Shown piece by piece: positions 15,521 to 29,769 of a stretch of 46,187 nucleotides of DNA (its first letter is position 1; the number at the start of each line of letters is the position of its first letter). Origin of the DNA: a virus; the IMG/VR virus record IMGVR_UViG_3300034106_003513, positions 1 through 46,187 of that record. One strand, written 5' to 3'. The notes under the pieces were generated by a model. The model did not search any database. It had not been told where the DNA came from and worked only from the letters and a program-made list of their open reading frames with translations. A program made the position numbers and the translations under genes.

Positions 15521-15728
15521 GGCTCGCCTCCCCCACTTGCTCCTCGATTCGCTTCTCGCACGCCGCGTAGACCCACTCTGGCAGAGAGCGGTCGGGCGTG
15601 GTTACGATCGTGTCGAGAATTACGACCTCGCCGAATGCGTTCACGTCGGCGACCACCGTGAGCCCGTCAATCGCGATCTCGCGCGTGGTCCACTTGATGC
15701 CCGTGCGCGTGTCGGTGTAGCTACTCAC
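15513..15728 (-). CDS. Small hypothetical protein
   Basis: A 71-residue protein from GTG 15728, preceded by GGAGGCGAGAC. The first two-thirds are beta-rich (TGIKWTTREIAIDGLTVVAD, FGEVVILDTIVTTPDRSL) and the end is a helix (PEWVYAACEKRIEEQV). It overlaps neighbours by eight bases on each side. No family recognised. Confidence 0.65.
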   Translation of the reverse strand: MSSYTDTRTGIKWTTREIAIDGLTVVADVNAFGEVVILDTIVTTPDRSLPEWVYAACEKRIEEQVGEASRG

Positions 15729-16056: not shown

Positions 16057-16375
16057 GTCTCGCCTCCTCAAGCGCGCGCAGGGCGGCGTCGAGGTCGAGC
16101 ATGGGCGTAAGAGCCACGCCGCTCATGACCCCCTTCGCCGCCTCGCAAACCTCGTGCATCGCCGCGAGCACTTCCGCGCGAGGGATCGGGTGCGTGCTGC
16201 GCATCGCGCTTGAGTCCTCGCTTGCGTGCTTCCATGTCCAAGGCGGAACGAAGAACATCTCGCGCGTCACGCCGTCGTGCGCAGGAATGATCCGCAGCAC
16301 GAAAGGCTGGCCACCATCGCGCTTGAAGTGGTAGTGGCCATCCTCGCGCGGCGGCTCGCTCGTCCACGCGGTCAT
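16049..16375 (-). CDS. Hypothetical protein
   Basis: A 108-residue protein starting at ATG 16375, which overlaps the upstream stop as ATGA. The N-terminal half looks like a small beta domain (WTSEPPREDGHYHFKRDGGQ, PFVLRIIPAHDGVTREMFFV), a pattern I have seen in short phage proteins. The C-terminal half is helical (EVLAAMHEVCEAAKGVMSGV, LDLDAALRALEEARR). Function unknown. Confidence 0.7.
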   Translation of the reverse strand: MTAWTSEPPREDGHYHFKRDGGQPFVLRIIPAHDGVTREMFFVPPWTWKHASEDSSAMRSTHPIPRAEVLAAMHEVCEAAKGVMSGVALTPMLDLDAALRALEEARRG

Positions 16376-17340
16376 TGGCCACGCTCCACGGTCTCGATGA
16401 CCGGCAGTGCGACGCGGTGGGCGCGGAGGACGCCGTTGCTTCTCAGCGCATCCTTGGCGCACCCAAAGCCAACGGTCACTTCGCCGTCGGCGTACTCGCC
16501 AAGCCAGCACTCCAGCACGCGCGCGGGCGGCTGCGAGGACACGGGCGCGCTCGGCTCGCCGCGTTGGCGGGCGGTGTAGAGCTTCATGAGCAACTCCCAC
16601 GGCGCTGGGTTGTAGGGCGGAACGTCCTCCGCCATGAATCGACACGCTTCGTCCGCGTACGCCACCGCAGCGCGCGTGTACTCGTCGGGGCGCAACGCCT
16701 CGCCGTGCGCCTTCTTCTCGCTCTCCAGCGCGCGTTGCAGGTCGGCGAGCTGCGCCTTGAAGCTGCGGCGGGCGGCGTCAAGGACCTCGCGCTGCGACTC
16801 CATGACAGACTGAGCCCCGCTCAGATGGAGCCTCGCATCGTCGCGCTCGTGCTTCGCCGCGCTCAACGCACGCTGCGCCGCGTTCAGCTCGTTCGCGTTG
16901 CGAGTCGCCAGCGCGCGCATCGCTTCCGCGTGCTTGGCCTCAATGGAGTCAATCTGCGCGTAAAGCCTCGTTGTGGTGCGATTTAGCTTGCTCATCGCCT
17001 CGTCGCGCTCTTTCTCGGCGGCGGCGAGCTTGGCGCGCAGGAGGTCTAACTGGCCCTTCAACCAATCTCGATCGCACTTGATTGCGATGTTTTCGTCCCC
17101 CATCTTGGCGCGCTCCTTCTCCACAGCGGCGAGCGTGATGCCCTGCGCTTTGAGTAGCTCGGTCGTCTGGTCAAGCTGACGCCGCGTGCTGTCCAGCGTG
17201 ACGCGCAAGAGTTCCACGTCGCCCCCCTCCACCGGCTCGCTCTCGCAAAAGGCGCGGACTGCCGACTCAAGCTGGAACTCCCTATCCACCGGGTCCGGGT
17301 CCGCCCACGCCTCCCGCAGTTTCTTCTCAGCGCCGTTCAC
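16372..17340 (-). CDS. Long coiled-coil protein
   Basis: A 322-residue protein from GTG 17340 (GTGA overlap). Residues about 40-215 form a continuous coiled coil (LLRVTLDSTRRQLDQTTELL, DLLRAKLAAAEKERDEAMSK, RDDARLHLSGAQSVMESQRE). The last 100 residues are a small globular part with aromatic residues (MAEDVPPYNPAPWELLMKLY, VLECWLGEYADGEVTVGFGC). It is the longest gene of this block apart from the beta-helix and PAPS-like genes. Function unknown; a scaffold or host-binding role is possible. Confidence 0.7.
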   Translation of the reverse strand: MNGAEKKLREAWADPDPVDREFQLESAVRAFCESEPVEGGDVELLRVTLDSTRRQLDQTTELLKAQGITLAAVEKERAKMGDENIAIKCDRDWLKGQLDLLRAKLAAAEKERDEAMSKLNRTTTRLYAQIDSIEAKHAEAMRALATRNANELNAAQRALSAAKHERDDARLHLSGAQSVMESQREVLDAARRSFKAQLADLQRALESEKKAHGEALRPDEYTRAAVAYADEACRFMAEDVPPYNPAPWELLMKLYTARQRGEPSAPVSSQPPARVLECWLGEYADGEVTVGFGCAKDALRSNGVLRAHRVALPVIETVERGQ

Positions 17341-17495
17341 TTCTCGTCTCCCTTGTAGCGACCCGCGCGGTTCCCATACGACCGCCAAGCTCCGCGCGGG
17401 TCAGTCCCAGGCTTGACGGTTTTCCAGTACGTGTACGCAGCCAACGCCGCCTCCGCTGCCCAGAATGCGAACAGGGAGAGGACGGCGCAGGCCAT
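17337..17495 (-). CDS. Small membrane protein
   Basis: A 52-residue protein from ATG 17495. Residues 2-20 are hydrophobic (ACAVLSLFAFWAAEAALAA), consistent with a signal anchor, and the rest is polar and basic (KTVKPGTDPRGAWRSYGNRA). It ends with a GTGA overlap and starts two bases after the upstream stop. Function unknown. Confidence 0.55.
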   Translation of the reverse strand: MACAVLSLFAFWAAEAALAAYTYWKTVKPGTDPRGAWRSYGNRAGRYKGDEK

Positions 17496-17497
17496 GA

Positions 17498-17818
17498 CTA
17501 GATGCGCTCCCGAGCGATGCCGTTGAGGGCCGCGCTCGCTTGCTCCAATGCCGCGCGGTGTTCCGCGTCGTTGCTGCCAGCGGTCGCCAGCAGGATCAGC
17601 GCCTCGTCGATCTTCTCGATCGCGGTGCGCGTCGCTCGCCACTGGGGCGAGTTGCGCAGGACACGGCGGGATTCGCGCTCGGCCAGTTCGGCGGCCTTGG
17701 CGCGGTAGGCTTCGATACGTTGTTGAGGTGTGCGTCGCATGGGCCAAATCCAAACACCACGCCCGCAGCCGCGCAAGCCGAATCCGCAGAAAAAGTAGCC
17801 AAACGCACCTAAACCCAT
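17498..17818 (-). CDS. Small hypothetical protein, first gene of the accessory block
   Basis: A 106-residue frame from ATG 17818, which has a strong ribosome site (AGGAG seven bases upstream). The first 26 residues are Gly/Phe/Trp-rich and hydrophobic; the remainder from residue 27 (MRRTPQQRIEAYRAKAAELA) is a typical helical phage protein, so ATG 17740 is an alternative start giving 80 residues. If 17818 is right, the left arm of the inverted repeat at 17791-17805 lies inside the gene. It is the first gene of the leftward operon. Confidence 0.6.
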   Translation of the reverse strand: MGLGAFGYFFCGFGLRGCGRGVWIWPMRRTPQQRIEAYRAKAAELAERESRRVLRNSPQWRATRTAIEKIDEALILLATAGSNDAEHRAALEQASAALNGIARERI

Positions 17819-17852
17819 GCGGCTCCTAGCCTTGCTACGTTTGGCTACTTTT
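17791..17852. promoter_or_regulatory. Inverted repeat in divergent promoter region, candidate operator
   Basis: AAAAGTAGCCAAACG (17791-17805) is the perfect reverse complement of CGTTTGGCTACTTTT (17838-17852), 15-base arms with a 32-base spacer. The right arm also carries tandem GCTAC half-sites at 17834-17838 and 17844-17848. The element lies between the leftward accessory operon and the rightward HTH gene. The same half-site arrangement recurs near 28.75-28.81 kb. A role as operator for the neighbouring HTH protein is inferred. Confidence 0.6.
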
Positions 17853-17891
17853 CCCTTGCGCCGCGACCCTCGCTAGGTCTAGCTTCTAGGC

Positions 17892-18128
17892 ATGAAGCTC
17901 AAGCCTGGGCGACCGCCCCGAAGCGGAACCGCGTCCGATCGCGTCCACGCGCCGTTCATCGGCATCAACCGTGTCACGCGCAACCTGTCGCAAGCAGACC
18001 TCGCCCGCCTGGTCGGGGTCAGCAAAGCCGCTCTCTCGTCGTGGGAAGCTCAGCGCAACCGAGCCCCCCGTCCCATCCTCCTCAAGATCGCCCGCGTCCT
18101 GCGCGTGCGCGTAACCGACCTCCTATGA
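17892..18128 (+). CDS. Xre/Cro-type helix-turn-helix regulator
   Basis: A 78-residue protein made mostly of one HTH domain: LSQADLARLVGVSKAALSSW (residues 32-51) is a textbook Xre/Cro helix-turn-helix with Q33, A37, V41, S44, S48 and W51 in the usual places, followed by ILLKIARVLRVRVTDLL. The basic N-terminus (MKLKPGRPPRSG) may contact DNA. It is the first gene of the rightward replication operon and sits 40 bases from an inverted repeat, so it is a good candidate regulator of both divergent operons. Its stop overlaps the next start as ATGA. Confidence 0.85.
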   Translation: MKLKPGRPPRSGTASDRVHAPFIGINRVTRNLSQADLARLVGVSKAALSSWEAQRNRAPRPILLKIARVLRVRVTDLL

Positions 18129-18946
18129 GTTACCCGAGAGTCAACTGGAGCACGCTCAAGGCCATGAGCGTCAGCCCCAAGCACTACCTGCATGGCCTCA
18201 CAAGCCCCCGCGCCGACACGCCCGCGCTCCAGCTCGGACGCGCGCTGCACTGTCTCGTCTACGAGCCAGGCGAGTTCGCCGTCCGGTACGCAGCCGCGCC
18301 GAACTTCAACCGCGCCTGCAACGACGACACCGCTCGCGCCAAGGGCTACGACGGCGGAAAGCAGGCGGCGCTGGCGTGGGAGGCGTCCAACCAAGAGCGC
18401 GAGATCATCGCGGCTGACATCTACCAGCGCGCCTGCGGGATGCGCGACGCTCTGCTCGCCGATCCCGTCGCTGGACCTCTCATGCGCGGCGGGCGAGTCG
18501 AGCACCGCATCGAGTGGACCGACTCACTCACGGGCATTGAGTGCAAGGGCCGCGTGGACCACGTCAACGGCTGTCTCTCGGACCTCAAGAGCACCCGCTC
18601 TCTCCAATGGTGCGAGCGCGACGCGGCCCGGCTTCAGTACCACGCGCAGCTTGCTTGGTACTCGGACGGCCTCGAAGCGGCTGGGCTGCGCACGGAAGAA
18701 TCACCGCGCCTAGTGTTCGTCGAGTCCGAGCCGCCCTACGACGTGCTCGTGCTGCTTTTCACCGAGGAAGACCTTGCCGCTGGCCGTCGCGTCTACCGCG
18801 CGTGCCTCGACATGCTGGCTGAGTGCCGCAAGACCGGGCTCTATCCCGGCGTGTCCCGTGGCGTCGCGCGGCGGATTCAGTTGCCTGAGTGGGCGCTGGC
18901 CGAGGACGACGTTGAGTTGACGCTGGACGGTGAGGTGCTGCTGTGA
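18125..18946 (+). CDS. RecE-like PD-(D/E)XK exonuclease
   Basis: A 273-residue protein; ATG 18125 overlaps the regulator's stop as ATGA. The N-terminus (NWSTLKAMSVSPKHYLHGLT, then ADTPALQLGRALHCLVYEP) matches the opening of exodeoxyribonuclease VIII (RecE)-type and related PD-(D/E)XK nucleases. The core runs GIECKGRVDHV ... CLSDLKST with D145, D153 and K155 as likely metal and catalytic residues. Such nucleases degrade one strand of duplex DNA for phage recombination. The following genes include an SSB-like protein; a typical annealing protein was not recognised. Confidence 0.85.
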   Translation: MSYPRVNWSTLKAMSVSPKHYLHGLTSPRADTPALQLGRALHCLVYEPGEFAVRYAAAPNFNRACNDDTARAKGYDGGKQAALAWEASNQEREIIAADIYQRACGMRDALLADPVAGPLMRGGRVEHRIEWTDSLTGIECKGRVDHVNGCLSDLKSTRSLQWCERDAARLQYHAQLAWYSDGLEAAGLRTEESPRLVFVESEPPYDVLVLLFTEEDLAAGRRVYRACLDMLAECRKTGLYPGVSRGVARRIQLPEWALAEDDVELTLDGEVLL

Positions 18947-19329
18947 GCCACTGGAAAACCCTGTTCCCCTCGCTCTACCTCGGCGCGCACGACCTGCAAG
19001 GCCGAGACGTAGCGCTCACCATCCGGCGCGTCGTGGCCGAAGAGGTCAAGACCGAGAAGGGCTCCGAGCGCAAGGCGATCGTGTACTTCGTCGAGACGGG
19101 CAAGAAGGCCAAGCCCGGCGAGGAAGAGAAGCGGCTGGTCCTCAACAAGACCAACGCCAAGACCGTCGCCAAGCTCTACGGTCCCGAGATGAACGACTGG
19201 ACGGGCAAGCGCATCACGCTGTTTCCGTCCCGCGTGTCGGCGTTCGGCGAAGAAGTCGAAGCCATCCGTATCCGACCTGTCCCTCCTGCACCTGCACCCT
19301 CACCTGAAACGAAAGAAGAACCCAAGTGA
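18943..19329 (+). CDS. Conserved phage protein of the recombination cluster
   Basis: A 128-residue protein, GTG start overlapping the nuclease stop as GTGA. It has the pattern KTLFPSLYLGAHDLQGRDVA, LTIRRVVAEE, then RLVLNKTNAKTVAKLYGPEM and NDWTGKRITLFPSRVSAFGE. This layout is widespread in phage genomes directly beside exonuclease and SSB-like genes, but no biochemical function is known to me. The predicted fold is small and beta-rich with a Pro/Glu-rich tail. Its place suggests a role in recombination or DNA binding. Confidence 0.75.
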   Translation: MSHWKTLFPSLYLGAHDLQGRDVALTIRRVVAEEVKTEKGSERKAIVYFVETGKKAKPGEEEKRLVLNKTNAKTVAKLYGPEMNDWTGKRITLFPSRVSAFGEEVEAIRIRPVPPAPAPSPETKEEPK

Positions 19330-19775
19330 CGTTCGACATCGACATGGACAACCTCGGAGGCGGCGCAACGCTGACCGGGGTGAACCTCTGGACCATCTCG
19401 TCCTGCTCGCTGACCAAGTCGAGCAAGGGCGACAACATGCTCAAGCTCGACCTCGTTTGCGGCGAGGCCAAGCTCAAGGACAACATCATGCTCGGCGGCG
19501 CGGGCTGGGGCATGGGCCGACGCAAGCTCATCGCCCTCGGCGTCCCCGAGACTGGCAAGCTCACCATCGACCCGCCTGGCTTCATCGGCATGAAGGTGTG
19601 GGCCTCGACCAAGATGGAGCCGAACACTTGGACCGACTCCAAGACGGGCCAGCAGCGCAGCGGCGAGCGGCTGGTCGTGGACGTGAAGGAACTGACGCAC
19701 GCGGGTTTCCAGCACGTCAACAACATCCCCGCTGGATGCACGATGCCCGCTGACGACGACTGCCCGTTCGGCTAG
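19326..19775 (+). CDS. Single-stranded DNA-binding-like protein with acidic tip
   Basis: A 149-residue protein with a GTG start (GTGA overlap). The body is beta-rich (SSCSLTKSSKGDNMLKLDLV, FIGMKVWASTKMEPNTWTDS, LVVDVKELTHAGFQ), resembling small phage OB-fold-like or DUF669-type proteins. The C-terminus ends ADDDCPFG, close to the acidic DDDIPF tip by which bacterial SSB proteins recruit partners. Its neighbours are a RecE-like nuclease and a helicase, so coating of ssDNA during replication or recombination is likely. Confidence 0.7.
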   Translation: MTFDIDMDNLGGGATLTGVNLWTISSCSLTKSSKGDNMLKLDLVCGEAKLKDNIMLGGAGWGMGRRKLIALGVPETGKLTIDPPGFIGMKVWASTKMEPNTWTDSKTGQQRSGERLVVDVKELTHAGFQHVNNIPAGCTMPADDDCPFG

Positions 19776-19778
19776 GCC

Positions 19779-21260
19779 ATGCTCCGCCCCTATCAGCTCC
19801 GCGCGATCGAGATGGTCCGCGCCCGCGTGAAGGACAGGCCGCTGCTCTGTCTCCCCACGGGCGCAGGCAAGACAACCGTCGCGTCCGAGATCATCAAGCG
19901 CACGCTGGAACGGGGGCGGCGCGCAATCTTCCTGGTCCACCGCATCGAGTTGGTGGACCAGGCAGTCGCGCGCTTGGAACAGTTCGGACTCAAGCCCGGT
20001 CGCATCCTCGCTGGCGTCAAGGAGGACCGGGACCGAGCGGTGCAGGTAGCTAGTATCCCGACGCTGCTCAAGCGCGAGCACTGGCCTGCGGATCTGGTGC
20101 TCGTCGATGAATGCGCGCACGCGGTCAGTGCGAGCTGGAAGAAGGTCATCGACCGCTACTCCACCTCCACGGTCATCGGCCTCACCGCAACCCCGATCCG
20201 CCTCGACGGGCGCGGACTCGGCGACCTATTCGGCTGCATCATCGAGCCAGTCACGACGCGAGAGCTGATCGAAGCGGGGCACCTCGTCGAGCCGCGCGTG
20301 TTCGCGCCTCCGGTGGACCTGTCCAACCTGCCCACGCGCGGCGGCGACTACTCGATCCCCGAGCTTGCGGCGCGCGTCTCAGGGCTAACCGGCTCCATCG
20401 TGGGCGAGTGGCAAAAGCACGCGCGCGGCATGAGCACGGTCGTGTTCGCGGTCAACGTGGAGCACTCACGCGCCATCGTGGCTGCGTTCCAAGAGATCGG
20501 CGTCCGGGCCGCGCACGTTGACTACCGCATGGGCCGCGAGCAGCGCCGCCAGACGCTCCAAGACCTGCGGCATGGCGTGCTCGACATGGTCTCCCAAGTG
20601 TCGTTGCTCAGCGAGGGCTGGGACTTGCCGACGCTCCAGTGCGCCGTCCTCGCTCGACCGACACAAAGCCTCGCCCTGTTCCGCCAGATGGTAGGCCGCG
20701 TCATGCGCCCGCCCGGTCCGGTCCTCGTCCTCGATCACGCGGGCAACCACCACGCGCACGGGCTCGTCACTGAACCGATCGAGTGGAGCCTCGACGGGGC
20801 AGTTAGAAACAAGCGCACCGCGCCCAGTGTGGCGACGTGCAAGAACTGCTTCGCCTGCTTCGCGCCCGGCCCCTTGGAGTGCCCGGTCTGCGGCCATCCG
20901 CTGCGGCAAGAGTCCGACGCCGACGCGCCTGCGGTCCACAACCCCGGCGAGCTGGTCGAGCTGAGCATGAGCCCGCCCAAGGCCACGATGGACGAGAAGG
21001 AGTCCACCTACGCACGCATGGTGCAAGCCTGCTCCGATGAGGGCGAGGCGCTAGGCACGGCGCGCGGTCGGTTCAAGCGCCGCTTCGGTGTCTGGCCGCG
21101 CTTCTCCGAGATTGAGCGCAAGCTGTACAAGTGCACGGGCCACGTCTGGGAGACCGTGACCACGCACGCATTCGACTACGTCCGCTGCGCTAGATGCTAC
21201 CAGCGCGGGAACGAGCGGGATTTGGTGGCGCAGCGGGCGGCTTCGAGGATCGTCCGATGA
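19779..21260 (+). CDS. SF2 DEAD/DEAH-box-type helicase with zinc ribbon
   Basis: A 493-residue helicase. Visible motifs: RPYQ (3-6), Walker A PTGAGKTT (26-33), DECAH as motif II (110-114), LTATP as motif III (135-139) and QMVGRVMRP as motif VI (303-311). A zinc ribbon follows (CKNC ... CPVC, about 354-373), and a second Cys/His/Cys group lies near the C-terminus (CTGH, CARC). The layout matches phage and bacterial SF2 helicases of the RecG/UvrB-like translocase group. It probably unwinds or remodels DNA during replication. Its stop overlaps the next start as ATGA. Confidence 0.9.
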   Translation: MLRPYQLRAIEMVRARVKDRPLLCLPTGAGKTTVASEIIKRTLERGRRAIFLVHRIELVDQAVARLEQFGLKPGRILAGVKEDRDRAVQVASIPTLLKREHWPADLVLVDECAHAVSASWKKVIDRYSTSTVIGLTATPIRLDGRGLGDLFGCIIEPVTTRELIEAGHLVEPRVFAPPVDLSNLPTRGGDYSIPELAARVSGLTGSIVGEWQKHARGMSTVVFAVNVEHSRAIVAAFQEIGVRAAHVDYRMGREQRRQTLQDLRHGVLDMVSQVSLLSEGWDLPTLQCAVLARPTQSLALFRQMVGRVMRPPGPVLVLDHAGNHHAHGLVTEPIEWSLDGAVRNKRTAPSVATCKNCFACFAPGPLECPVCGHPLRQESDADAPAVHNPGELVELSMSPPKATMDEKESTYARMVQACSDEGEALGTARGRFKRRFGVWPRFSEIERKLYKCTGHVWETVTTHAFDYVRCARCYQRGNERDLVAQRAASRIVR

Positions 21261-21703
21261 TTGACCACGACGAGGTCCCGACGCGTCTCAATGTGATGAT
21301 GATGCTGTTGGATGAACTCCGCACATTGAACGCCAATTTTTCGGCACTACGTGACTCTGTAGAGCGGCGCAATAGGCGGCCTATGAAGCCGTCCAGTGTG
21401 CGCCCATCAGGCCCAGAAGAGGCAATGGTTTCCCTCATGGATATTTGGTCCAAGAGGTATCCCAATGGAGCAACGGCGCACAAAGCTGCGCTTGATTCGG
21501 TGCACGACGTCGAGCTTCTTGCCGTTCTTGATTCGTTCAATGTTGTAGAGCGCAATGGGACCGCGTCTGGCCGCAAGTTGGGGTACAAGATAAAAATTGC
21601 CGCAGGTCGTCGATTGAATAGGCGACGTTTTGAGAAAATCGGAACGCTTCAAGGCCGAGCGAAATGGTGCGTCCTTGCGGATGGCGAGGATGTGAAGCAA
21701 TGA
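21257..21703 (+). CDS. Hypothetical protein of lower GC content
   Basis: A 148-residue protein from ATG 21257. It is a basic, helical protein (LNVMMMLLDELRTLNANFSA; FEKIGTLQGRAKWCVLADGE near the end) with no recognised domain. Base use is clearly more A/T than in the neighbours: 29 of the 60 bases at 21301-21360 are G or C, and AAT, TTT, GAT and AAA codons are common. This suggests recent acquisition. Both ends are joined by ATGA overlaps, so it has been fitted neatly into the operon. Confidence 0.7.
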   Translation: MIDHDEVPTRLNVMMMLLDELRTLNANFSALRDSVERRNRRPMKPSSVRPSGPEEAMVSLMDIWSKRYPNGATAHKAALDSVHDVELLAVLDSFNVVERNGTASGRKLGYKIKIAAGRRLNRRRFEKIGTLQGRAKWCVLADGEDVKQ

Positions 21704-22008
21704 CCGAATCCGACCTCGTCTCCGCAATCCTGATCTGCCTCGGCACGCGCCCCGGCGTGAAGGTGTGGCGCGCGAACGTGCTCGTGGCGCGTGACCGCAC
21801 GGGCCGAGTCGTCCGCGCTGGCGTCCCAGGGCAGGCCGACATCTCGGGCATCCTCGCACCCAACGGGCGACGGCTCGAAATCGAGTGCAAGACCGCGACC
21901 GGGCGGCAGACTGAAGACCAAAAGCGCTGGCAACGGATGATCGAGGCCCACGGTGGGCTGTACGTGCTGGCGCGGAGTGTGGCGGATGTGGAGATGGCGC
22001 TGCGATGA
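21700..22008 (+). CDS. VRR-NUC domain nuclease
   Basis: A 102-residue single-domain protein. The VRR-NUC signature is visible: VPGQADISGIL with Q45 and D47, then RRLEIECKTATGRQTEDQKR with E62, K64 and Q70, ending GGLYVLARSVADVEMAL. This family belongs to the PD-(D/E)XK nucleases and includes phage enzymes believed to cut branched DNA such as Holliday junctions. Here it would process recombination or packaging intermediates. ATGA overlaps bind it to both neighbours. Confidence 0.88.
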   Translation: MTESDLVSAILICLGTRPGVKVWRANVLVARDRTGRVVRAGVPGQADISGILAPNGRRLEIECKTATGRQTEDQKRWQRMIEAHGGLYVLARSVADVEMALR

Positions 22009-22187
22009 GACGACCCCGTGACTACTTCTTCGGCATCCTGCTCGACCGCAAGGCGGGGCGCATAACGGACGAGGAGTTCAAGCAGCGCTGGGAAGCCGCC
22101 GTCAAACGCGACGACGAGGAGCGCGAGCAAGTTCTTGAGACCATGAAAGCCATGCTCCCGGCCCCAAACCCCGAGACCAAGCCGTGA
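22005..22187 (+). CDS. Small charged hypothetical protein
   Basis: A 60-residue, mostly helical, highly charged protein (YFFGILLDRKAGRITDEEFK, QRWEAAVKRDDEEREQVLE). It overlaps the VRR-NUC stop as ATGA and the primase start as GTGA. Such short helical linkers are common between replication genes. Function unknown. Confidence 0.65.
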   Translation: MRRPRDYFFGILLDRKAGRITDEEFKQRWEAAVKRDDEEREQVLETMKAMLPAPNPETKP

Positions 22188-24478
22188 CCGACTACCCCGA
22201 CGACCCCATCTCCCTCCTGTTCCAACTCGGCCTCGGCCCGTGGGTCACGCCGCTCCGTGGCAAGATCCCCACCCTCGACGCATGGAGCACGCGCGAGCCG
22301 GTGGACGAGGCGACCGTGCGCGGCTGGGTCGCGTCCGGTCTAAATCTTGGACTGCGCACCGGGGCGCGCTCGCAAGTCATCGTCATCGACGACGACCGGG
22401 GGCGGCATGGTCTCGACGAGTTCGACGCGCCGCCGACCGGCCTCATCGCACGCTCACCCACGGGCTCGACCCACTACTACTACCGCTGCCCCGCCGTCCC
22501 TCCCCGCAACTCAGCCTCGCACCTTGCGCCCAAGGTGGACGTGCGCGGCGAGGGTGGGCAAGTGGTCGTCCCGCCGAGCATCCACCCCACGGAGCGCGAG
22601 GAATACCGCTGGGCCGCGCTGGGCGAGCCGGGTCCGTTCCCCGCCGACCTGTTCCGCGTCGTGACCGTGGACATGACGCCGCCGCCCGCCTCAACCGGGC
22701 AAGGCTACGCCGAGACCGCGCTCAGGCGCGAGGTCGAGCGGGTCGAGCAAGCGCCTCAGGGGCAAGGCAACGACACGCTGGTCAAGGCCGCGTTCAACCT
22801 CGGGCAGCTTGTCGCCGGGGGCGTGCTGAGCCGCGAGGTGGTCGAGGAATCGCTGATGGCGGCTGCCACGCTCAACGGGCGCAGGCCGGAGAAAGAGGCG
22901 CGAGCCACGATCCAGAGCGGCCTGCGCGGCGGCTCAGCAAAGCCCCGAGGCGTGCCCGAGCGTCACCCTGCGGTGACCACATCGGCCCCCGAGCGAGCCC
23001 GCAAGAAGCGCGAGATCCTTGTCCCCGGCTCGCATGTGCTGGAGGGCGGCGAATACGTGGAGCAGGGCAACGACCGCTTCTCGTCTCAAGTGCTCGAACA
23101 CCTTCCGCCCGACGCCATCTACCGCCGCGCCGGGACCATCGGCGAGATCCAAGACGGCCAGTTCTCCGAGGTCAAGCCGCACCGGATGCGCTCGATCATC
23201 GACGCCGGTGTTAAGCTGGTAAGTTGCAAGGCAGATGACACCAAGGACGGCACCAATTACGAGACCGCCTTCCGTGTCTGCTCTCGTGACGCCGCCGACC
23301 TGGTGCTCGGCTACGCCGCCGTGCGCGGGTCCATCCGAGACCTGAAGCACATCGCCTCGCATCCGGTCTACGTCGGCTCCGACTTCCAGCTCGCCAAGCC
23401 CGGCTGGAACGAGGCCAGCGGCGTCTACCTCACGAGCACTCTCGACGTGGCCCCGCTGGAGCTGGACTACGCCAAGGCGGTGCTCGAAGACCTGGTCTGC
23501 GACTTCCCCTTCCAAGCCGACGCCGACCGCGAGAACTACTTCGGCCTTTTGCTAACCCCTTTGCTACGTCCCGCGATCAACGAGCCCGTACCAATGCACC
23601 TCATCGGCTCGCCGATCGAGCGCAGTGGTAAGACCAAGCTCGCCGAGATCGTCCTCGGCTGCATCATCGCCGGTCGGCGCACGCCCGCCATGCAGCTAGG
23701 GGACCGGGAAGAGGAGCGCGAGAAGCGCATCATGGCCGTGCTCATGCGGGGCCAGACCATCCTGCATCTCGACAACCTCTCGGACTTCCTCGACTCAGCC
23801 TCGCTGGCATCCCTGCTCACCTCCAGCGAGTACCAAGGCCGCATCCTCGGGGCCTCAGCCGCGCCCACGCTCACCAACGGGCTCACCGTGGTTGGGACGG
23901 GTAACAACGTCCACGCGACGGGGGAGATCAGCAAGCGCATCGTCCCGGTGCGTCTCCTGCCCAATACGGACGCGCCTGAGAGCCGTACGGACTTCCGGCA
24001 CCCCGACTTGCTCTCTTACTGCCTCGACGCAAGGGAGCGCGTCCTAGGCGCTCTGGTGGGGCTCGTAGAGAACTGGCGGGCAGCCGGTCGTCCCCTGCAC
24101 CGTGGCGGCTTCGGCGGCTTCGAGCGCTGGACAGCCGTGGTCGGTGGCATCCTCGGCGCGGCGGGCTACACGAACTGGCTCACGTCGATGGCCGAGTGGC
24201 GCTCCAGCGCGGACGACTCGACGCAGGAGCACGCGGCGCTAGTACGCTCCTGGCACGAGCGCTACGCCTGTGAGGCGGTGTCGGGCGGGGACCTTTTTGA
24301 GCTTGCCATGGCTCTGGAGCTTTACGGCTGGCTCGGCGAGAAGCGCTCCGACCGAGGCCAGCGCACGTCCTTCGGGCGCCGCGTCCTCTCGGCCATCGCC
24401 GGGCGCATCATCTGCGGCTACCGGGTCGAGTCTGAAGGCGTAGGCGGGGCGCGGCGCATGAGGTTGACGCATCCGTGA
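22184..24478 (+). CDS. Primase-polymerase (PrimPol) fused to D5-like ATPase/helicase
   Basis: A 764-residue fusion. Residues about 1-165 are a bifunctional primase-polymerase domain: VIVIDDD with D69-D71, STHYYYR with H97, and VDVRGEGGQVVVPPSIHP with D119. Residues about 430-640 are an ATPase with a P-loop (GSPIERSGKT, 475-484) and Walker B (TILHLDN, D530). The P-loop has Pro where Gly usually begins the Walker A motif; GKT is intact. Such PrimPol-helicase proteins make primers and unwind DNA at phage and plasmid origins. No phage polymerase was found, so elongation probably uses the host enzyme. Confidence 0.9.
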   Translation: MTDYPDDPISLLFQLGLGPWVTPLRGKIPTLDAWSTREPVDEATVRGWVASGLNLGLRTGARSQVIVIDDDRGRHGLDEFDAPPTGLIARSPTGSTHYYYRCPAVPPRNSASHLAPKVDVRGEGGQVVVPPSIHPTEREEYRWAALGEPGPFPADLFRVVTVDMTPPPASTGQGYAETALRREVERVEQAPQGQGNDTLVKAAFNLGQLVAGGVLSREVVEESLMAAATLNGRRPEKEARATIQSGLRGGSAKPRGVPERHPAVTTSAPERARKKREILVPGSHVLEGGEYVEQGNDRFSSQVLEHLPPDAIYRRAGTIGEIQDGQFSEVKPHRMRSIIDAGVKLVSCKADDTKDGTNYETAFRVCSRDAADLVLGYAAVRGSIRDLKHIASHPVYVGSDFQLAKPGWNEASGVYLTSTLDVAPLELDYAKAVLEDLVCDFPFQADADRENYFGLLLTPLLRPAINEPVPMHLIGSPIERSGKTKLAEIVLGCIIAGRRTPAMQLGDREEEREKRIMAVLMRGQTILHLDNLSDFLDSASLASLLTSSEYQGRILGASAAPTLTNGLTVVGTGNNVHATGEISKRIVPVRLLPNTDAPESRTDFRHPDLLSYCLDARERVLGALVGLVENWRAAGRPLHRGGFGGFERWTAVVGGILGAAGYTNWLTSMAEWRSSADDSTQEHAALVRSWHERYACEAVSGGDLFELAMALELYGWLGEKRSDRGQRTSFGRRVLSAIAGRIICGYRVESEGVGGARRMRLTHP

Positions 24479-24702
24479 GCGCGGTGCGGTGTCCGCTTTG
24501 CCCCCGGTCCATGCCGCTCGCGGACTACCGCCAGCACTGGGACCGCTTCCACGCCGTCAACCTCGTCACCGGCGAGCGGCCCCAGTACCAGCCTCCCAAG
24601 ACTGCGGCCCGTGCGCCCGCTCCCGGTACGGACTGGATCGGGTACGGAGCAAGTTTTCGCACGTCCTCTGCTCCGCTGTTCCGAAGAACCGATCCAGCTT
24701 GA
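24475..24702 (+). CDS. Small C2H2-type zinc-finger protein
   Basis: A 75-residue protein with a GTG start overlapping the primase stop as GTGA. Residues 6-26 form a C2H2-like finger: C6, C9, H21 and H26 in CPLCPRSMPLADYRQHW and DRFH. The remainder is proline-rich and unstructured (ERPQYQPPKTAARAPAP). It is the last gene of the rightward operon. Its 3' half lies antisense to the HTH-like gene at 24566-24847. Confidence 0.65.
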   Translation: MSAVRCPLCPRSMPLADYRQHWDRFHAVNLVTGERPQYQPPKTAARAPAPGTDWIGYGASFRTSSAPLFRRTDPA

Positions 24703-24847
24703 TGGCGCTCCCCAAGCCCGTGCCGTAACCGGCGCAGATGCGGTCCATGACCGCGATGGACACGCCAGCGCGGCGACCGGCCTCGATGCGGGACAGTGAG
24801 AGGCGCGACAGCTCGGCCTTGACGTGAACAGCTAGCGGGTCGTGCAT
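24566..24847 (-). CDS. Helix-turn-helix-like protein ending the second accessory block
   Basis: A 93-residue frame whose first 57 residues look like an Xre-type HTH domain (HVKAELSRLSLSRIEAGRRA, then GVSIAVMDRICAGYGTGLGS, then AIKLDRFFG). The ATG at 24847 is the only start available in frame, and its ribosome site is weak. The C-terminal 35-40 residues overlap antisense with the zinc-finger gene. It may be a second regulator or a remnant of one. It would be the last gene transcribed from the 28.6 kb region. Confidence 0.55.
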   Translation of the reverse strand: MHDPLAVHVKAELSRLSLSRIEAGRRAGVSIAVMDRICAGYGTGLGSAIKLDRFFGTAEQRTCENLLRTRSSPYRERAHGPQSWEAGTGAARR

Positions 24848-24952
24848 GTGTGGGTTGCCAGCAGCGCGCGTTACGTCCCTGCGCTGGCGACAGGGTTGAG
24901 ACGATCCACCACGGGCGGCACACGCGCCTCACCGACAGACTCGTGGTGCTCC

Positions 24953-25033
24953 TCATGAGAGCAGATAGATGAACAGCAGGAAGAGGGCAGACACGATGAG
25001 CGTGTCGCGGTCCTCGCGGTCGAGTTTGGGCAT
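24953..25033 (-). CDS. 26-residue membrane peptide
   Basis: A 26-residue frame from ATG 25033 to TGA 24953. A strong ribosome site (GGGAGG) lies eight bases upstream, and the ATG shares a base with the upstream stop (TGATG). The peptide is a charged start followed by a hydrophobic helix (TLIVSALFLLFIYLLS), long enough to span a membrane. Small phage peptides like this can act as holins, inhibitors or exclusion factors; no function can be assigned. Confidence 0.5.
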   Translation of the reverse strand: MPKLDREDRDTLIVSALFLLFIYLLS

Positions 25034-25278
25034 CAGCGCGCCTCCCGTAGCTTGCGGCGCGCGTCACGTCGAACAGCTTCGCGTAGGTCGCGCCACACCC
25101 AGCGCTCGAACAGAATGTCCGTGCCGCCGGTCAAGCTCACGGACGCGCACGGGCTGTAACGCGGGTACTTCCCGTTCGGCTTGGTCGCCCACCAGATGCG
25201 CCCATCGGCCACCCGGAACGCAAGCAGGCTAGCGGCGTACTCGGCGCGGTCGTAGGGCGCGCGGCGTGTGGTAGTCAC
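25033..25278 (-). CDS. Hypothetical protein
   Basis: An 81-residue protein from GTG 25278 (GTGA overlap). It has a compact central part rich in Trp and Tyr (VADGRIWWATKPNGKYPRYS) and a basic C-terminal helix (LREAVRRDARRKLREAR). No recognised family. The basic tail could bind nucleic acid. Confidence 0.65.
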   Translation of the reverse strand: MTTTRRAPYDRAEYAASLLAFRVADGRIWWATKPNGKYPRYSPCASVSLTGGTDILFERWVWRDLREAVRRDARRKLREAR

Positions 25279-25484
25279 TGCCTCGCCTCCCAAGCTTCGC
25301 GCAGCCTCGCGGCGTCGCTGTTGCAGCTTGCAAGCTCGACAGCCGTGCGGCGCACCATCCGATGCGCACCAGCGCCTCCGATGAGCGCGACCGCTAGTAC
25401 CGCGCGACCGTGCTCGACCTCGGCCTCAAGCGCCTTCGCCTCGGCGGCGATGACGGCGCACCTTAGAGCCTCTAGAGCGCTCAT
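25275..25484 (-). CDS. Small helical hypothetical protein
   Basis: A 69-residue, alanine-rich helical protein (MSALEALRCAVIAAEAKALE, RMVRRTAVELASCNSDAARL). ATG 25484 overlaps the upstream stop as ATGA. A weakly hydrophobic segment (RAVLAVALIGGAGA) might associate with membrane. Function unknown. Confidence 0.65.
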   Translation of the reverse strand: MSALEALRCAVIAAEAKALEAEVEHGRAVLAVALIGGAGAHRMVRRTAVELASCNSDAARLREAWEARQ

Positions 25485-25774
25485 TTGCACACGATCCTTT
25501 CGACCTCGCGCATGTCAGTGAACTCGTCCGCGAGCAGCGCCGCTCGCTCCAGCACGCGCGCTAGTATCCCGGCGCGGTGCATGTCCAGAAAGCTAGCCAC
25601 GTGGCGCGATGGGTAGTCGTTGTCCCCAGGCGTCGCGTAGAGGCCCCAGTATCCCTCCAGCTCGCGCTCGACGTAGTACGCGGGCGCTGTGGTGTCGCCG
25701 TGGTGCAGGCACAGCCCAGGGCGAGCCAGTGAGGCGGCGTGGCAGCCGCAGGTGGTGTCGTAGGGGTCGGTCAT
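25481..25774 (-). CDS. Hypothetical protein with N-terminal Cys/His cluster
   Basis: A 97-residue protein from ATG 25774 (ATGA overlap). The N-terminus has a Cys/His cluster (TTCGCHAASLARPGLCLHHG) that could bind zinc. The rest is a small alpha/beta part (YYVERELEGYWGLYATPGDN, DYPSRHVASFLDMHRAGILA). I do not recognise the family. Confidence 0.65.
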   Translation of the reverse strand: MTDPYDTTCGCHAASLARPGLCLHHGDTTAPAYYVERELEGYWGLYATPGDNDYPSRHVASFLDMHRAGILARVLERAALLADEFTDMREVERIVCK

Positions 25775-25995
25775 GGTTGGACCTCGCCGCGTGCGCGCTC
25801 CAGTGCAGCGCGAGCTAGGTCGATGCCCATGATGCCGCACGACTCGCCGGGACAAGTCGCATCGTGAGACTCCACGATCATGCGCAGGGCTGAGTACAGC
25901 GCAGGCCCCGCGAACACGAGGTTCAGCATCTCCGGCGTCACCTCGCGCCCGTTCACCTCCAAGCGCGGCGGGGTGGGGAATTGCGGCGTAGTCAT
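25771..25995 (-). CDS. Small hypothetical protein
   Basis: A 74-residue protein from ATG 25995 (ATGA overlaps on both sides). It has a proline-rich start (TTPQFPTPPRLEVNGREVTP) and a helical body (YSALRMIVESHDATCPGESC). No function recognised. Confidence 0.65.
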   Translation of the reverse strand: MTTPQFPTPPRLEVNGREVTPEMLNLVFAGPALYSALRMIVESHDATCPGESCGIMGIDLARAALERARGEVQP

Positions 25996-26222
25996 TGGCG
26001 CACCTCGTTCGGCTCGCGGTCGAATCGTTTCGTTATGCGCCCCCACGAATCCTTCGGGCGCGTAACGGCGACGGCCACAGGCCCCTCGTCCACGCACAGG
26101 TCGTAGAAGCGCTCCACTGCGGTTTCGGCATCGTCCGCGAACACGCGAGTATCCCAGCGCTCGCCGCACTCTTCGGCCGTCACGATCCACGCCAAGCGCG
26201 GGCGGTATCGAGAATTGCTCAC
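25992..26222 (-). CDS. Small hypothetical protein
   Basis: A 76-residue protein from GTG 26222 (GTGA overlap). It has a mixed alpha/beta pattern with aromatic residues (RPRLAWIVTAEECGERWDTR, DDAETAVERFYDLCVDEGPV). No function recognised. Confidence 0.65.
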   Translation of the reverse strand: MSNSRYRPRLAWIVTAEECGERWDTRVFADDAETAVERFYDLCVDEGPVAVAVTRPKDSWGRITKRFDREPNEVRQ

Positions 26223-26419
26223 GGCCTCACCTCGCTCCCACCATGCCCCAGCGCGCTCAGCCCAAACTCCCGCAAGCAGTCCGCGAGGAGCCCGGTCTCG
26301 TCCCGCTCCAGGTCGCGCACAAGCACCCTTGAGCCATCGCTCCAGTACGCGCGCCCGTGCTCGTCGCGGAACAGGTCGGGCGAGCCGTTGCCGGTGCGCA
26401 CCTGAGTTAGCGCGCTCAC
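26219..26419 (-). CDS. Small hypothetical protein
   Basis: A 66-residue protein from GTG 26419 (GTGA overlap). Its first half looks like a small beta domain (LFRDEHGRAYWSDGSRVLVR), the second half is a helix (DETGLLADCLREFGLSALGH). No function recognised. Confidence 0.65.
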   Translation of the reverse strand: MSALTQVRTGNGSPDLFRDEHGRAYWSDGSRVLVRDLERDETGLLADCLREFGLSALGHGGSEVRP

Positions 26420-26742
26420 TTGCTCACCGCCTCTCCGGCGTAACGGTACGCACCGTCGATGCCGCTGGCACTCTTGCGCGTCCCCATGATCGGCACGAAC
26501 ACGTAGCTACCATCGTGCGCTTGCCCGCCGATCCAGTCGCCACGCCAGCCCGTGTAGCCTTGCTCGCGCTGCACCTTGGCATCGAAGCGCGCTAGTGCGA
26601 CCGCGCACGCCTCCCAAGCGGCTTGCTCGCCGGAATACTCGTCCGCGTACGGAACCAAGTAGTTGAACGCATCGCACCGCACGCGCCAACGTGCGCCCGT
26701 GGTGTTGCCCGGCGGTACGTAGCGAACCGAAATTGCTTGCAT
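26416..26742 (-). CDS. Hypothetical protein
   Basis: A 108-residue protein from ATG 26742, chosen because the leader GACTGGAGACGACAC precedes it; the frame is open further upstream to GTG 26844. It is alpha/beta and rich in Tyr and Trp (DAFNYLVPYADEYSGEQAAW, GYTGWRGDWIGGQAHDGSYV). No family recognised. Confidence 0.65.
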   Translation of the reverse strand: MQAISVRYVPPGNTTGARWRVRCDAFNYLVPYADEYSGEQAAWEACAVALARFDAKVQREQGYTGWRGDWIGGQAHDGSYVFVPIMGTRKSASGIDGAYRYAGEAVSK

Positions 26743-26869
26743 GTGTCGTCTCCAGTCTCGTCGTTTCAGTGTCCCCCAGCGCACGCGCGCTAGTAGGGGC
26801 GGCTTCCCGCTACGCGCACAGGGGCGCGTTTCGACCCTTGCCACGGGGTCTCTTCAATGGCGGGGGCGG

Positions 26870-27199
26870 TTACAGGCGCACCGTGCGCGCGTTCAATCGA
26901 GCGCGGCCGACACGTCCGATTTCGTAAAGCTCGGGCTGCTCACTCATCGCGCCCGCTCCGACCCATAGCGCGCGCTTGCGAAGCGTGTCCGTGTCGCACG
27001 TGTCGAGATCGTCCCAAGCGCCATACTCGCGCAACGTGCGGCGCAATTCGGCATCGTCGGCGATCCACTTCACGCGATCGACCCAGTAGCTAACGTGCTC
27101 GTCAACAGGGCCGCTACGCGCGCAGTCCGCAATTGCGTCGATCGGTGCGCGGAACAGTTCGCGCCCGCTAGTACCGTCCAAGTAGCTGTAGTGCTTCAC
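26870..27199 (-). CDS. Hypothetical protein
   Basis: A 109-residue protein from GTG 27199, preceded by GAGACTGGAGACGAGAC. It is mainly helical and acidic (LFRAPIDAIADCARSGPVDE, RVKWIADDAELRRTLREYGA, TDTLRKRALWVGAGAMSEQP). The N-terminal part (KHYSYLDG) looks beta. Function unknown. A stand-alone gene not overlapping its downstream neighbour. Confidence 0.65.
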   Translation of the reverse strand: MKHYSYLDGTSGRELFRAPIDAIADCARSGPVDEHVSYWVDRVKWIADDAELRRTLREYGAWDDLDTCDTDTLRKRALWVGAGAMSEQPELYEIGRVGRARLNARTVRL

Positions 27200-27214
27200 G
27201 TCTCGTCTCCAGTC

Positions 27215-27310
27215 TCATTCCACGCGGTCCGCGCCGCGCACGCTTGCCCCGTACCCTAGGGCGTGCGCCATCGAACAGGCGCGGGCCAGCGCGACGTGCG
27301 CTAGTGCCAC
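27215..27310 (-). CDS. Possible 31-residue small protein
   Basis: A short open frame from GTG 27310 to TGA 27215 that ends 15 bases before the next gene and partly overlaps its leader. It is alanine-rich and could form a helix (VALAHVALARACSMAHALGY). No clear ribosome site precedes it, so it is only a candidate; it could instead be part of a regulatory leader. Confidence 0.3.
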   Translation of the reverse strand: MALAHVALARACSMAHALGYGASVRGADRVE

Positions 27311-27340
27311 GGGCTTGTGCGCGCCCGTGTTGCGCGGAGG

Positions 27341-27565
27341 CTAGGTGCGGGCCGCGCGCTTGAGCACGTCAGCCTCAGCGAACGCGCCGTGGGTGAACGT
27401 GAATTGACCCACGATCGGATCGAGCTTGATCACCTTCGCCTTGCGGTACGCAGCAAGCGCGCGGAGCGCTTCGGGGCGAGTCAGTTGCGCCGTCTCACAC
27501 GCGAACGCGAGGAAGCTCTCTTCGGCGTTCACGATGCGCTGCGCTACGTCACGGGTTCCGCTCAA
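27341..27565 (-). CDS. Small phage protein with TTG start
   Basis: A 74-residue protein. TTG 27565 overlaps the upstream stop as TTGA; no ATG or GTG fits as well. The stretch FACETAQLTRPEALRALAAY, then RKAKVIKLDPIVGQFTFTHG and AFAEADVLKRA, resembles a small conserved phage family with the pattern KVIKLDxxxGQFxxxHGAFxEADVLxRA, function unknown. It may be a compact helical and beta domain. Confidence 0.65.
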   Translation of the reverse strand: MSGTRDVAQRIVNAEESFLAFACETAQLTRPEALRALAAYRKAKVIKLDPIVGQFTFTHGAFAEADVLKRAART

Positions 27566-27918
27566 GACGCAACCTCCCCACGCGCGCGGGCGAGGGCGGA
27601 ACGGGCCGCTTCCATGCGCGGAAACATTCCATGCCCGCGCCGTAGTAAGCGGATGTAGTCGAGCACGCCCTCGTCGGACTGCTCGGATAGGTCGCGGACC
27701 GACTGCTCTAGATCCGCCAGCGCCGCGTACAAGTCGGGCGCGGCGGCGATCAGGCGGGCGTTGGCTTCTTGCTCGTGCTTGTACCCGTAGACCGCTGCGA
27801 TGAGCGCATCGGTCCGCCCGCGCGGCCAATCGGGGTGCGCAATCTTGAGGCACCCGGCCGGAGCGCCAATGTCCGGGCGCACGCCCCACGGCCCGCGCGT
27901 GAATTGCGGCCCGCTCAC
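27562..27918 (-). CDS. Phage accessory protein with NARLIAAAPDLYAAL motif
   Basis: A 118-residue protein from GTG 27918 (GTGA overlap). It follows a very common phage layout: TRGPWGVRP near the N-terminus, a short beta part, then EANARLIAAAPDLYAALADL, often labelled Ea22-like. The last third is helical and basic (FPRMEAARSALARARGE). Function not known. It is a relative in style, though not necessarily in descent, of the gene at 15721-16056. Confidence 0.7.
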   Translation of the reverse strand: MSGPQFTRGPWGVRPDIGAPAGCLKIAHPDWPRGRTDALIAAVYGYKHEQEANARLIAAAPDLYAALADLEQSVRDLSEQSDEGVLDYIRLLRRGHGMFPRMEAARSALARARGEVAS

Positions 27919-28172
27919 GACCGCACCGCCTCTCCACCCGCGAACGTGTCCAAGTCAAGCGCGCGGAACTCGGCGAGCGTGCCGCACCATGCGGACCTGC
28001 GGGGCGCGTCGGCTAGCTCGGCCGCAATCTCGTCGGCCGTCCCGTTCCAAAGTGAGCGCGACGTGCGGCGCAGGTAGTGCTTAGCGCGCTCGCACCCGCC
28101 TATGTCTTTGCGCTGCGAATCAGTGCAGGGCCACTCCTCGCCGCAGCCAGCGCAGGTCTCTCGCGTGTCCAT
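27915..28172 (-). CDS. Cysteine-rich small protein, possible zinc binding
   Basis: An 85-residue protein from ATG 28172, preceded by CAACTTGGAGACGAGACG. Cysteines at residues 7, 10, 16 and 26 (TCAGCGEEWPC, GGCERAKHY) could bind zinc. The rest is helical and acidic (WNGTADEIAAELADAPRRSA). No recognised family. Confidence 0.65.
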   Translation of the reverse strand: MDTRETCAGCGEEWPCTDSQRKDIGGCERAKHYLRRTSRSLWNGTADEIAAELADAPRRSAWCGTLAEFRALDLDTFAGGEAVRS

Positions 28173-28293
28173 CGTCTCGTCTCCAAGTTGCGCCCCCAGT
28201 CGAGGGAGCTGGTCATGTGTGCGCGTAGCGACCGCGCGTAGCTCGTCAGTGCGGTAGCGAGCCGCATACGGCGCGGACGTGCGCCGTTTCGCT

Positions 28294-28614
28294 TTAGCGC
28301 CAGTACGTGCCAACGTACATCTCGCGCCCAATGCGACGGCGCGCGGCGTCGGATAGGTCCGCAAGCTCCGCGCGCAGGTCCGCGCCCGTTTCGTATTCGC
28401 GGAACCATTCGTACGGGTCCACGTAAACCATCGTCCCCCCGTCGTTCACGCGCACTTCGCCGTCGTTCATGGCCTGCTCAAGTTCCTGCTCGTCGGCGAT
28501 ATCGTCCGCGCGCGTACCGTGGCGCTCGTCCCACTCGGAAAGCGCTTCCTCCAACGAGGCGCGCACAGCGAGGAACATCGGGCCGAATTGGTTGCCGAAC
28601 AGGTAGCGTTTCAC
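28294..28614 (-). CDS. Hypothetical protein, first gene of the second accessory block
   Basis: A 106-residue, acidic protein from GTG 28614 after GGAGACTGAGAC. It reads YLFGNQFGPMFLAVRASLEE, then ALSEWDERHGTRADDIADEQ and VRVNDGGTMVYVDPYEWFRE, an alpha/beta pattern I associate with small phage accessory proteins but cannot name. It is the first gene leftward from the 28.6-29.0 kb regulatory gap. Confidence 0.65.
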   Translation of the reverse strand: MKRYLFGNQFGPMFLAVRASLEEALSEWDERHGTRADDIADEQELEQAMNDGEVRVNDGGTMVYVDPYEWFREYETGADLRAELADLSDAARRRIGREMYVGTYWR

Positions 28615-28747
28615 GTCTCAGTCTCCGTTGCGCCCCTTGCGAGGCTAGGTCCATCGCGCGCCGCACCATGCTGCGCACGCCCCCATTCTATCGACCCGAT
28701 TGCCTAGGTTTCCACACCTTCCACACTTTCATAAGTTTCTGTTCTGT

Positions 28748-28813
28748 AAAGTAGCGGCCCTAACCCCATACCACGAGCAGACTTACGCCATTTCCGCTAC
28801 TTTCGCTACTTTC
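28748..28813. promoter_or_regulatory. Operator-like GTAGC/GCTAC half-site cluster
   Basis: AAAGTAGCGG at 28748-28757 is the exact reverse complement of CCGCTACTTT at 28794-28803, followed directly by CGCTACTTTC at 28804-28813; another GCTAC is at 28821-28825. The layout (one GTAGC, about 40 bases, then tandem GCTAC half-sites nine bases apart) mirrors that at 17795-17848. A shared regulator is likely but untested. Confidence 0.55.
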
Positions 28814-28923
28814 TCCGGGCGCTACGCTATACGGGCGCTCCCCCTCTCCACACCTATACGTGTGTAGTAATGTTCATAACCTTCATGTGTATACGTAAAT
28901 GCCTATGGCGCAAGGGGTTACGC

Positions 28924-28951
28924 TCGACACTTTACCGTCCCAAAACATACT
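28924..28951 (+). promoter_or_regulatory. Candidate sigma70-type promoter for the late block
   Basis: TCGACA (28924-28929; five of six match to TTGACA) and CATACT (28946-28951; four of six match to TATAAT) are separated by 16 bases. The start of the candidate small terminase gene is 54 bases beyond. The match is by eye and the host's promoter preference is unknown. Confidence 0.4.
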
Positions 28952-29004
28952 AACCTTCGCCAAGGTAGCGACGCACCATGCACCAGCGAAACCTTAGCGC
29001 ATAG

Positions 29005-29769
29005 ATGAAATCTAGCCCCTCTCGAGCCCCGGCGCGCCTCGAGGCGGACCCAGGCCCACGCGCGCCTCTCCACCACGATACGCAGAGCGAATGGGGGTGC
29101 GGGGGCTTGACGAGCGAGCGGGGAAGGGCGAAGGTCTGGGCAGTGGAGCTAGAACAGAGCGCGAACGCTGGACGACAGAGCGACGAACAGAGTCGAGACC
29201 TGACCCCGCGCGAGCGTCAGCTGTCCGGCCTGCGCCCGTTCAAGCCCGGTCAGTCTGGCAACCCATCGGGCCGCCCACGCGGGTCGAGTCCACGCCAAGC
29301 GGCCATGAAACTGCTCGCGGCCCACGCGGACGCCGAGGGTGACGGCGCTCTGTCGCTCAAGCTCGGCCGAGGCTATGTGCGCGCGGTCGAGATGCTGACC
29401 GAACGAATGGCCGACCCCAACGCGTCCCCTAGCGCCCTGGCGAGCTACGGCAAGGCCCTTGAGTCACTGACCCGCGCCCTGGCCGAGCTGGACCCTGCGC
29501 CGAAGGTTACCGAGCGGCGCGAAACCAGCCAGCGCGTCGTCCTCTCCCTCTCCGGCCAGCTACCTGCCCAGGCGTCGGGCCAGCTTCCGATAATGCCTCT
29601 TATGTTGCACGACGGCGAGCAGGCGGGAAGTTGCGAGGTAGATAGCGGCCCGCGCACGGTCGAGCTCGAGCGGGGCGGGGGAGAGCCGTCGGAGACCGGC
29701 ATGGGTCCCATCCGTGACGCACCGCTTCCGTTGCGGAGTACCCCGCCCCCGTCCCCGCCCACACCATAG
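29005..29769 (+). CDS. Candidate terminase small subunit (GRPRG/DUF5681-like)
   Basis: A 254-residue frame. The middle carries RPFKPGQSGNPSGRPRG, a motif of phage proteins encoded near terminase genes (DUF5681-like), followed by helices (SSPRQAAMKLLAAHADAEGD, LKLGRGYVRAVEMLTERMAD, SASALASYGKALESLTRAL-like). These could form the DNA-recognition and oligomer parts of a small terminase. The first 60-70 residues and the C-terminal 80 are low in complexity, so the true start may be later; no strong ribosome site precedes ATG 29005. It lies 5.2 kb before the large terminase, an unusual spacing. Confidence 0.5.
   Translation: MKSSPSRAPARLEADPGPRAPLHHDTQSEWGCGGLTSERGRAKVWAVELEQSANAGRQSDEQSRDLTPRERQLSGLRPFKPGQSGNPSGRPRGSSPRQAAMKLLAAHADAEGDGALSLKLGRGYVRAVEMLTERMADPNASPSALASYGKALESLTRALAELDPAPKVTERRETSQRVVLSLSGQLPAQASGQLPIMPLMLHDGEQAGSCEVDSGPRTVELERGGGEPSETGMGPIRDAPLPLRSTPPPSPPTP

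Follow-up and report, generated by a model that had tools for sequence, protein, structure and literature searches.

In P4, the same repeats occur in two separated regions, ori and crr, and Cro/C1 operators are built as a dyad of close half-sites; general knowledge of iteron spacing is likewise used for comparison here. Published reports describe a satellite initiator that binds iterons (PMC7145576) and a pRN1 origin that is contrasted with iterons and consists of a stem-loop located 3' of the Prim-Pol gene (PMC4234260), and they predict a helicase function for DUF3987 domains attached to primases (PMC5862659). This study concerns the IMG/VR virus record IMGVR_UViG_3300034106_003513 (46,187 b, GC content about 66% (0.657); the whole stretch is hereafter called the window) and the short sites, e.g., GCTACTTT, found in its two divergent intergenic gaps, region 1 and region 2 (Table 1). 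As judged from the sequence, both gaps very probably bind one and the same factor, and region 2 is tentatively put forward as a candidate replication origin with iteron-like sites.

According to our own open reading frame (ORF) calls, genes run leftward at 9.8-17.7 kb and 24.6-28.6 kb and rightward at 17.9-24.7 kb and from 29 kb onward, and these blocks leave two divergent gaps, in agreement with the first-pass annotation, which had named them as the only ones. All coordinates that it had given for the repeats also check: GTAGC lies at 17795 and 28751, and GCTAC at 17834, 17844, 28796, 28805, and 28821, with tandem copies 9-10 bp apart and in both orientations. The distance from GTAGC to the first GCTAC is 39 bp in region 1 and 45 bp in region 2. 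The same holds for the perfect inverted arms: those of region 1 (17791-17805 and 17838-17852) measure 15 nt, with 32 nt between them, and those of region 2 (28748-28757 and 28794-28803) measure 10 nt, with 36 nt between them. A genome-wide count, i.e., within this single record, had been suggested as a check, and the many coding copies that would speak against a shared site are absent: SGCTACTTT has five matches in 46,187 b, every one inside the two gaps, and dinucleotide shuffles gave a mean of 0.15, with 0/100 reaching five. Even the plain 5-mer GCTAC, with 99 copies in the record, is enriched in the gaps (3 versus 0.32 expected, and 5 versus 0.84). A third common element, CCTAAMCCCAT, was missed by the first-pass annotation; it has exactly two copies in the record, one per gap, starting 8 bp (region 1) and 3 bp (region 2) past GTAGC. 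Chance can be rejected as the source of SGCTACTTT and of the composite of sites. For the 10-nt arm alone chance stands, since there are 13 such places in the record versus a shuffle mean of 11.7; among the perfect inverted repeats of the record (loops up to 80 nt), the 15-nt arm ranks longest, although some inverted arm of 13 or more was present in 6/60 shuffles.

Conservation in relatives, also suggested earlier as a check, was found. In viral contigs, the composite AAAGTAGC-N2-10-CCTAAMCCCAT occurs in seven stretches, six of them within five contigs of this phage group; the seventh (L426) matches none of 12 window genes, lacks a second copy, and is taken as a chance match. All GCTAC sites of region 1 are identical in 3/3 sequences. 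In region 2, GTAAAGTAGCGGCCCTAACCCCATA, CGCTACTTTC, and a 32-bp block (28852-28883) are unchanged in three relatives that are 80-85% identical over the aligned columns, and two further relatives hardly differ from the window there. The other copies in region 2 vary within a pattern, namely C, then G/A/C, C/A, and T/C, followed by ACTTT. At 28925, for example, the window has GACACTTT, where L008 and L020 have GCTACTTT and L007 has GCCACTTT, with ACTTT kept. This relaxed pattern, which is post hoc in that it was derived from these same relatives, has five matches in the window, all in region 2, against a shuffle mean of 1.6 and shuffles reaching six. Because all copies lie in the two gaps, the third element is common to both, and relatives of 80-85% identity keep the core unchanged, a single factor acting at both gaps is strongly suggested. 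This part of the earlier proposal, in which one regulator was to control four transcription units from two switches, was supported, while control of four units from two switches is more doubtful: the GCTAC copies have no close dyad, unlike Cro/C1 operators, and region 2 has origin-like features.

Region 2 looks more like an origin than like a simple switch, because iteron-like 9-bp repeats, the least stable 100 bp, and a GC-skew minimum within 1 kb come together there. The repeats vary among relatives. The 200 bp of lowest GC in the record (0.485 versus 0.657) and both of its two least stable 100-bp stretches fall within region 2, and the global minimum of the cumulative GC skew lies at 29,599 (detrended maximum at 9,849). 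Clustered short repeats, an AT-rich stretch alongside, and a skew extreme, as expected for iteron-type origins, are thus all seen. Skew also tracks transcription, so that the extreme at region 2 is partly confounded; nevertheless, third-position skew is negative in 9/10 plus-strand genes at 17.9-24.7 kb, left of region 2, and mostly positive in the genes just right of it, and the negative values indicate that transcription direction alone does not explain the skew.

It is proposed that an early DNA-binding protein of the phage would recognise AAAGTAGC/GCTACTTT in both divergent gaps. Replication would start in region 2, where several iteron-like copies of 9-10 bp lie beside the most easily melted DNA of the record. 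Region 1, in front of the recombination/replication operon, would provide a second cluster of sites through which the same protein may feed back on the operon for the replication machinery. The reader would most likely be the Prim-Pol protein (22184-24478) or an operon partner such as the Xre protein. If the origin reading is right, a testable origin and a likely reader are at hand for a group of uncultured phages; if the sites are operators only, this is an ordinary divergent control element. Either way, the element is a control region of a fairly ordinary kind with an uncatalogued sequence.

Table 1. Features of the two divergent gaps and adjacent genes in the window.
Feature	Position	Strand	Remarks
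Region 1	17741..17891	no strand	151-bp divergent gap, GC 0.59
Left arm of 15-bp perfect inverted repeat	17791..17805	-	contains GCTACTTTT on minus strand; identical in 3/3 aligned
CCTAAACCCAT, third element common to both gaps	17808..17818	+	one substitution in L006
Tandem GCTACGTTTG GCTACTTTT	17834..17852	+	start-to-start 10
Xre-type HTH protein, 78 aa	17892..18128	+	PF01381 E 3.9e-11; first gene of early + operon
Prim-Pol protein, 764 aa	22184..24478	+	PF09250 E 5.2e-24; candidate initiator
Region 2	28615..29004	no strand	390-bp divergent gap, GC 0.54; candidate origin of replication as well as divergent control region
Degenerate tandem copies CCACACCTT / CCACACTTT	28710..28729	+	L007 has a CGCTACTTT copy instead
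25-bp block, minus-strand GCTACTTT and CCTAACCCCAT	28746..28770	no strand	invariant in 4/4
Tandem CGCTACTTT CGCTACTTT	28795..28812	+	start-to-start 9; first copy invariant in 4/4
32-bp block	28852..28883	no strand	invariant in 4/4; at start of least stable 100 bp
Least stable 100 bp of record	28854..28953	no strand	z 5.1; candidate unwinding stretch
CGACACTTT	28925..28933	+	CGCTACTTT in L008, L020; CGCCACTTT in L007; overlaps -35-like hexamer
CGCTACCTT	28962..28970	-	CGCTACTTT in L007, L008

The sites could instead be plain operators, with the 78-aa Xre protein binding GCTACTTT in both gaps to repress or activate the four divergent units, and with the AT-rich stretch serving as promoter DNA. 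This is a possibility to be taken seriously, though a somewhat doubtful one. The Xre-type gene that the first-pass annotation had placed beside one gap is confirmed by its Pfam match (helix-turn-helix (HTH) family, Table 1) and starts 40 bp away from the copies in region 1; moreover, the sites are confined to the divergent gaps, GCTACTTT is oriented outward to each gene, and the copy at 28925 overlaps a -35-like hexamer. However, operators of this kind would be expected as close half-site dyads, whereas the nearest GCTAC arms are 32 nt apart, the copies are in tandem on the same strand, and the spacing from GTAGC to the first GCTAC is unequal between the gaps. Operators alone would also leave the skew and melting minima unexplained. 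The origin and the Xre-operator readings are compatible with each other, provided that the initiator controls the operon to which it belongs.

That GCTACTTT and CCTAAMCCCAT belong to a type of early promoter or host-factor element, recognised by the host or by a phage-modified polymerase rather than by a repressor or initiator of the phage, is improbable. Such an element would fit the way GCTACTTT points downstream to both flanking genes of each gap, and region 1 shows no sigma-70-like promoter by consensus scan, a kind of scan that is weak in GC-rich DNA. Yet the distances from GCTACTTT to the start codons, by our own start calls, differ widely (41, 52, 134, and 193), and tandem copies on the same strand do not suit a promoter. 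It is far less probable still that the inverted arms act as a hairpin or cruciform and that the repeats have no binder at all. The 15-bp perfect arms are the longest in the record, and a stem-loop is used by the Prim-Pol replicon of pRN1 (PMC4234260), but the extension of the region 2 arm past the motif is lost in L007, L008, and L020 (CCGCTAC to TCGCTAC), and the additional copies seen in relatives lack a matching arm. Since the arm extension varies, the hairpin was rejected as a conserved entity for region 2.

Similar arrays were sought in other phages and prophages. Two pattern scans gave 135 viral loci among the matches listed, which were ranked by two-strand GCTAC count, blind to genes; exclusion of the window's own relatives (L042, L051, L058, and L077) left 131 test loci, among which L155 and L109, from records of equal length, were counted separately. 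Profiles were tested for Prim-Pol in 100 records and for DUF3987 in 34, plus L124. The pair-pattern scan and a reversed-pattern control scan are both samples of the collection, with 120 matches listed each. Among the matches listed, the top three non-relatives were L026, L153, and L094, and Prim-Pol was found in 2/3 of these versus 2/97 other records (p 0.0036). In three unrelated phages and one prophage, clusters of the GCTACTTT type lie no more than 1 kb from genes for Prim-Pol or DUF3987. In L153, the array (18979-19211 of its record) lies about 0.5 kb from a Prim-Pol-DUF3987 gene and contains the record's least stable DNA, with the skew minimum 0.7 kb away. In L094, the array abuts DUF3987, followed by Prim-Pol, and in L124, an array with an AT-rich core lies 0.8 kb from DUF3987. 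The prophage is L264 of Rhodoferax, where the array abuts Toprim-DUF3987; the GTAGCAAA triple occurs in only 2/300 genomes of its order, its own included. It is conceivable, if unlikely, that GCTACTTT (with variants such as GCCACTTT) is the iteron of otherwise unrelated Prim-Pol/DUF3987 phages and prophages, used twice here, for the origin and for control of the replication operon. If so, GCTACTTT would be a short address by which the origins of a number of uncultured phages could be located, and there is a hint of a common, searchable iteron sequence in Prim-Pol/DUF3987 replicons.

Several observations weigh against the origin reading or its extension to other phages. The p value above is generous, as the ranking rule was not blind to L153 and L094, both of which had been noticed earlier. 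At 3/131 test loci (counting L153, whose gene is only partly inside the locus) versus 0/120 reversed-pattern loci among those listed, a homologue of a primase or of DUF3987 lay no more than 1 kb away, a difference that is not significant (p 0.14). The top-ranked L026 has neither Prim-Pol nor DUF3987 in its record, nor do L214 and L184 anywhere in their assemblies, and the array of L094 sits at a skew maximum. A GCTAC cluster was present in 0/12 named phage regions around primase-homologue matches, which were chosen by matches to two primase queries and do not all hold proven Prim-Pol proteins; the motif as a general feature of Prim-Pol phages was thus rejected. In the window itself, region 2 sits 4.1 kb from the Prim-Pol gene rather than adjacent to it, the skew argument is weakened by late-gene values that fade toward about 40 kb, and the AlphaFold model of Prim-Pol was too poor for use (mean pLDDT 33.6), so that an origin-binding domain would be conjectural. 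Lastly, a repeat array in Rhizobium phage 16-3, compared below, is not at a skew extreme.

Judging by the counts and the stretches inspected, most pattern matches in viral and genome contigs are repeats, either coding or intergenic in the host, or arose by chance; for instance, the match in L263/L304 looks coding, as does that in L067, 21 kb from its Prim-Pol. Searches with blastn of region 2, the L094 array, and L124 against named phages gave nothing useful. Other repeat arrays were also observed. L184:5590-5920, in a Clostridia metagenome-assembled genome, has two successive arrays laid out alike with similar spacers, GTGGCAAAA/GCCAC and GTAGCAAAA/GCTAC. In the virus contig L122 (660-925), a terminase-like gene is preceded by a long run of GTAGCTTGAA-type tandem decamers. 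An AT-rich gap before Prim-Pol carries GTGCAAAAAGT-like repeats in both orientations in the Pseudoalteromonas phages C7 and H40/1 (L282:7334-7841 and L285:7228-7841).

As for the surrounding genes, the rightward early block codes for the Xre-type HTH protein, an exonuclease VIII relative, a helicase, a Holliday-resolvase-like nuclease, and Prim-Pol, and the late block for terminase and a portal-like protein. The C-terminal part of Prim-Pol has matches to phage primase/polymerase families; its last 170 residues gave only DUF4253 in Pfam at E up to 10 (0.014, below the cut-off), and phmmer of the protein against PDB gave no match. No match was obtained by megablast of 17000-29500 against named phages, an Rfam scan gave 0 matches, no tRNA was found in the window, and no integrase was found among the window proteins scanned, a subset of the ORFs. 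The leftward accessory genes (12877-17740) are patchy in comparison with L006 and L007, while the adjoining divergent gap is conserved. A phosphoadenosine phosphosulfate reductase-like gene lies at 12877-13647 (phrog_424, E 5.6e-34).

Compared with known systems, the window resembles Cro/C1-type operators in having divergent promoters with an HTH gene alongside, but its GCTAC copies form no close dyad, and an integrase was not among the scanned proteins. As in the P4 ori/crr pair, the same repeats lie in two separated regions. Iteron-type origins (P4 alpha/ori, plasmid iterons, and the PLE RepA origin) share with region 2 the short repeats near easily melted DNA and, if Prim-Pol is taken as the candidate, an element-encoded initiator (PMC7145576, PMC4234260); they differ in that the candidate origin here is 4.1 kb from the primase gene, and P4 alpha is a Toprim primase, whereas the replication protein of the window matches Prim-Pol and not Toprim. 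In a pRN1-type replicon, too, a small DNA-binding regulator shares an operon with a replication protein of the Prim-Pol kind (PMC4234260), but its origin is given there as a stem-loop directly 3' of the gene, without iterons, whereas in the window one gap lies 4.3 kb on the 5' side of Prim-Pol and the other 4.1 kb on its 3' side. The array strings had no match in the literature searched by exact string, and the motif may nonetheless have been published. In Rhizobium phage 16-3 (DQ500118; L287:10080-10436), which is among the 12 named phage regions above, a dense two-strand CGTGAC(A) array of 8 and 5 copies was observed, a candidate origin that lies away from the annotated C-repressor operators, in record stretches that carry no origin annotation among those inspected. 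Its repeat sequence is other than that of the window, and the likeness lies in the layout, with two-strand tandem repeats filling a gap that immediately follows the 3' end of p101, a Prim-Pol-like gene.

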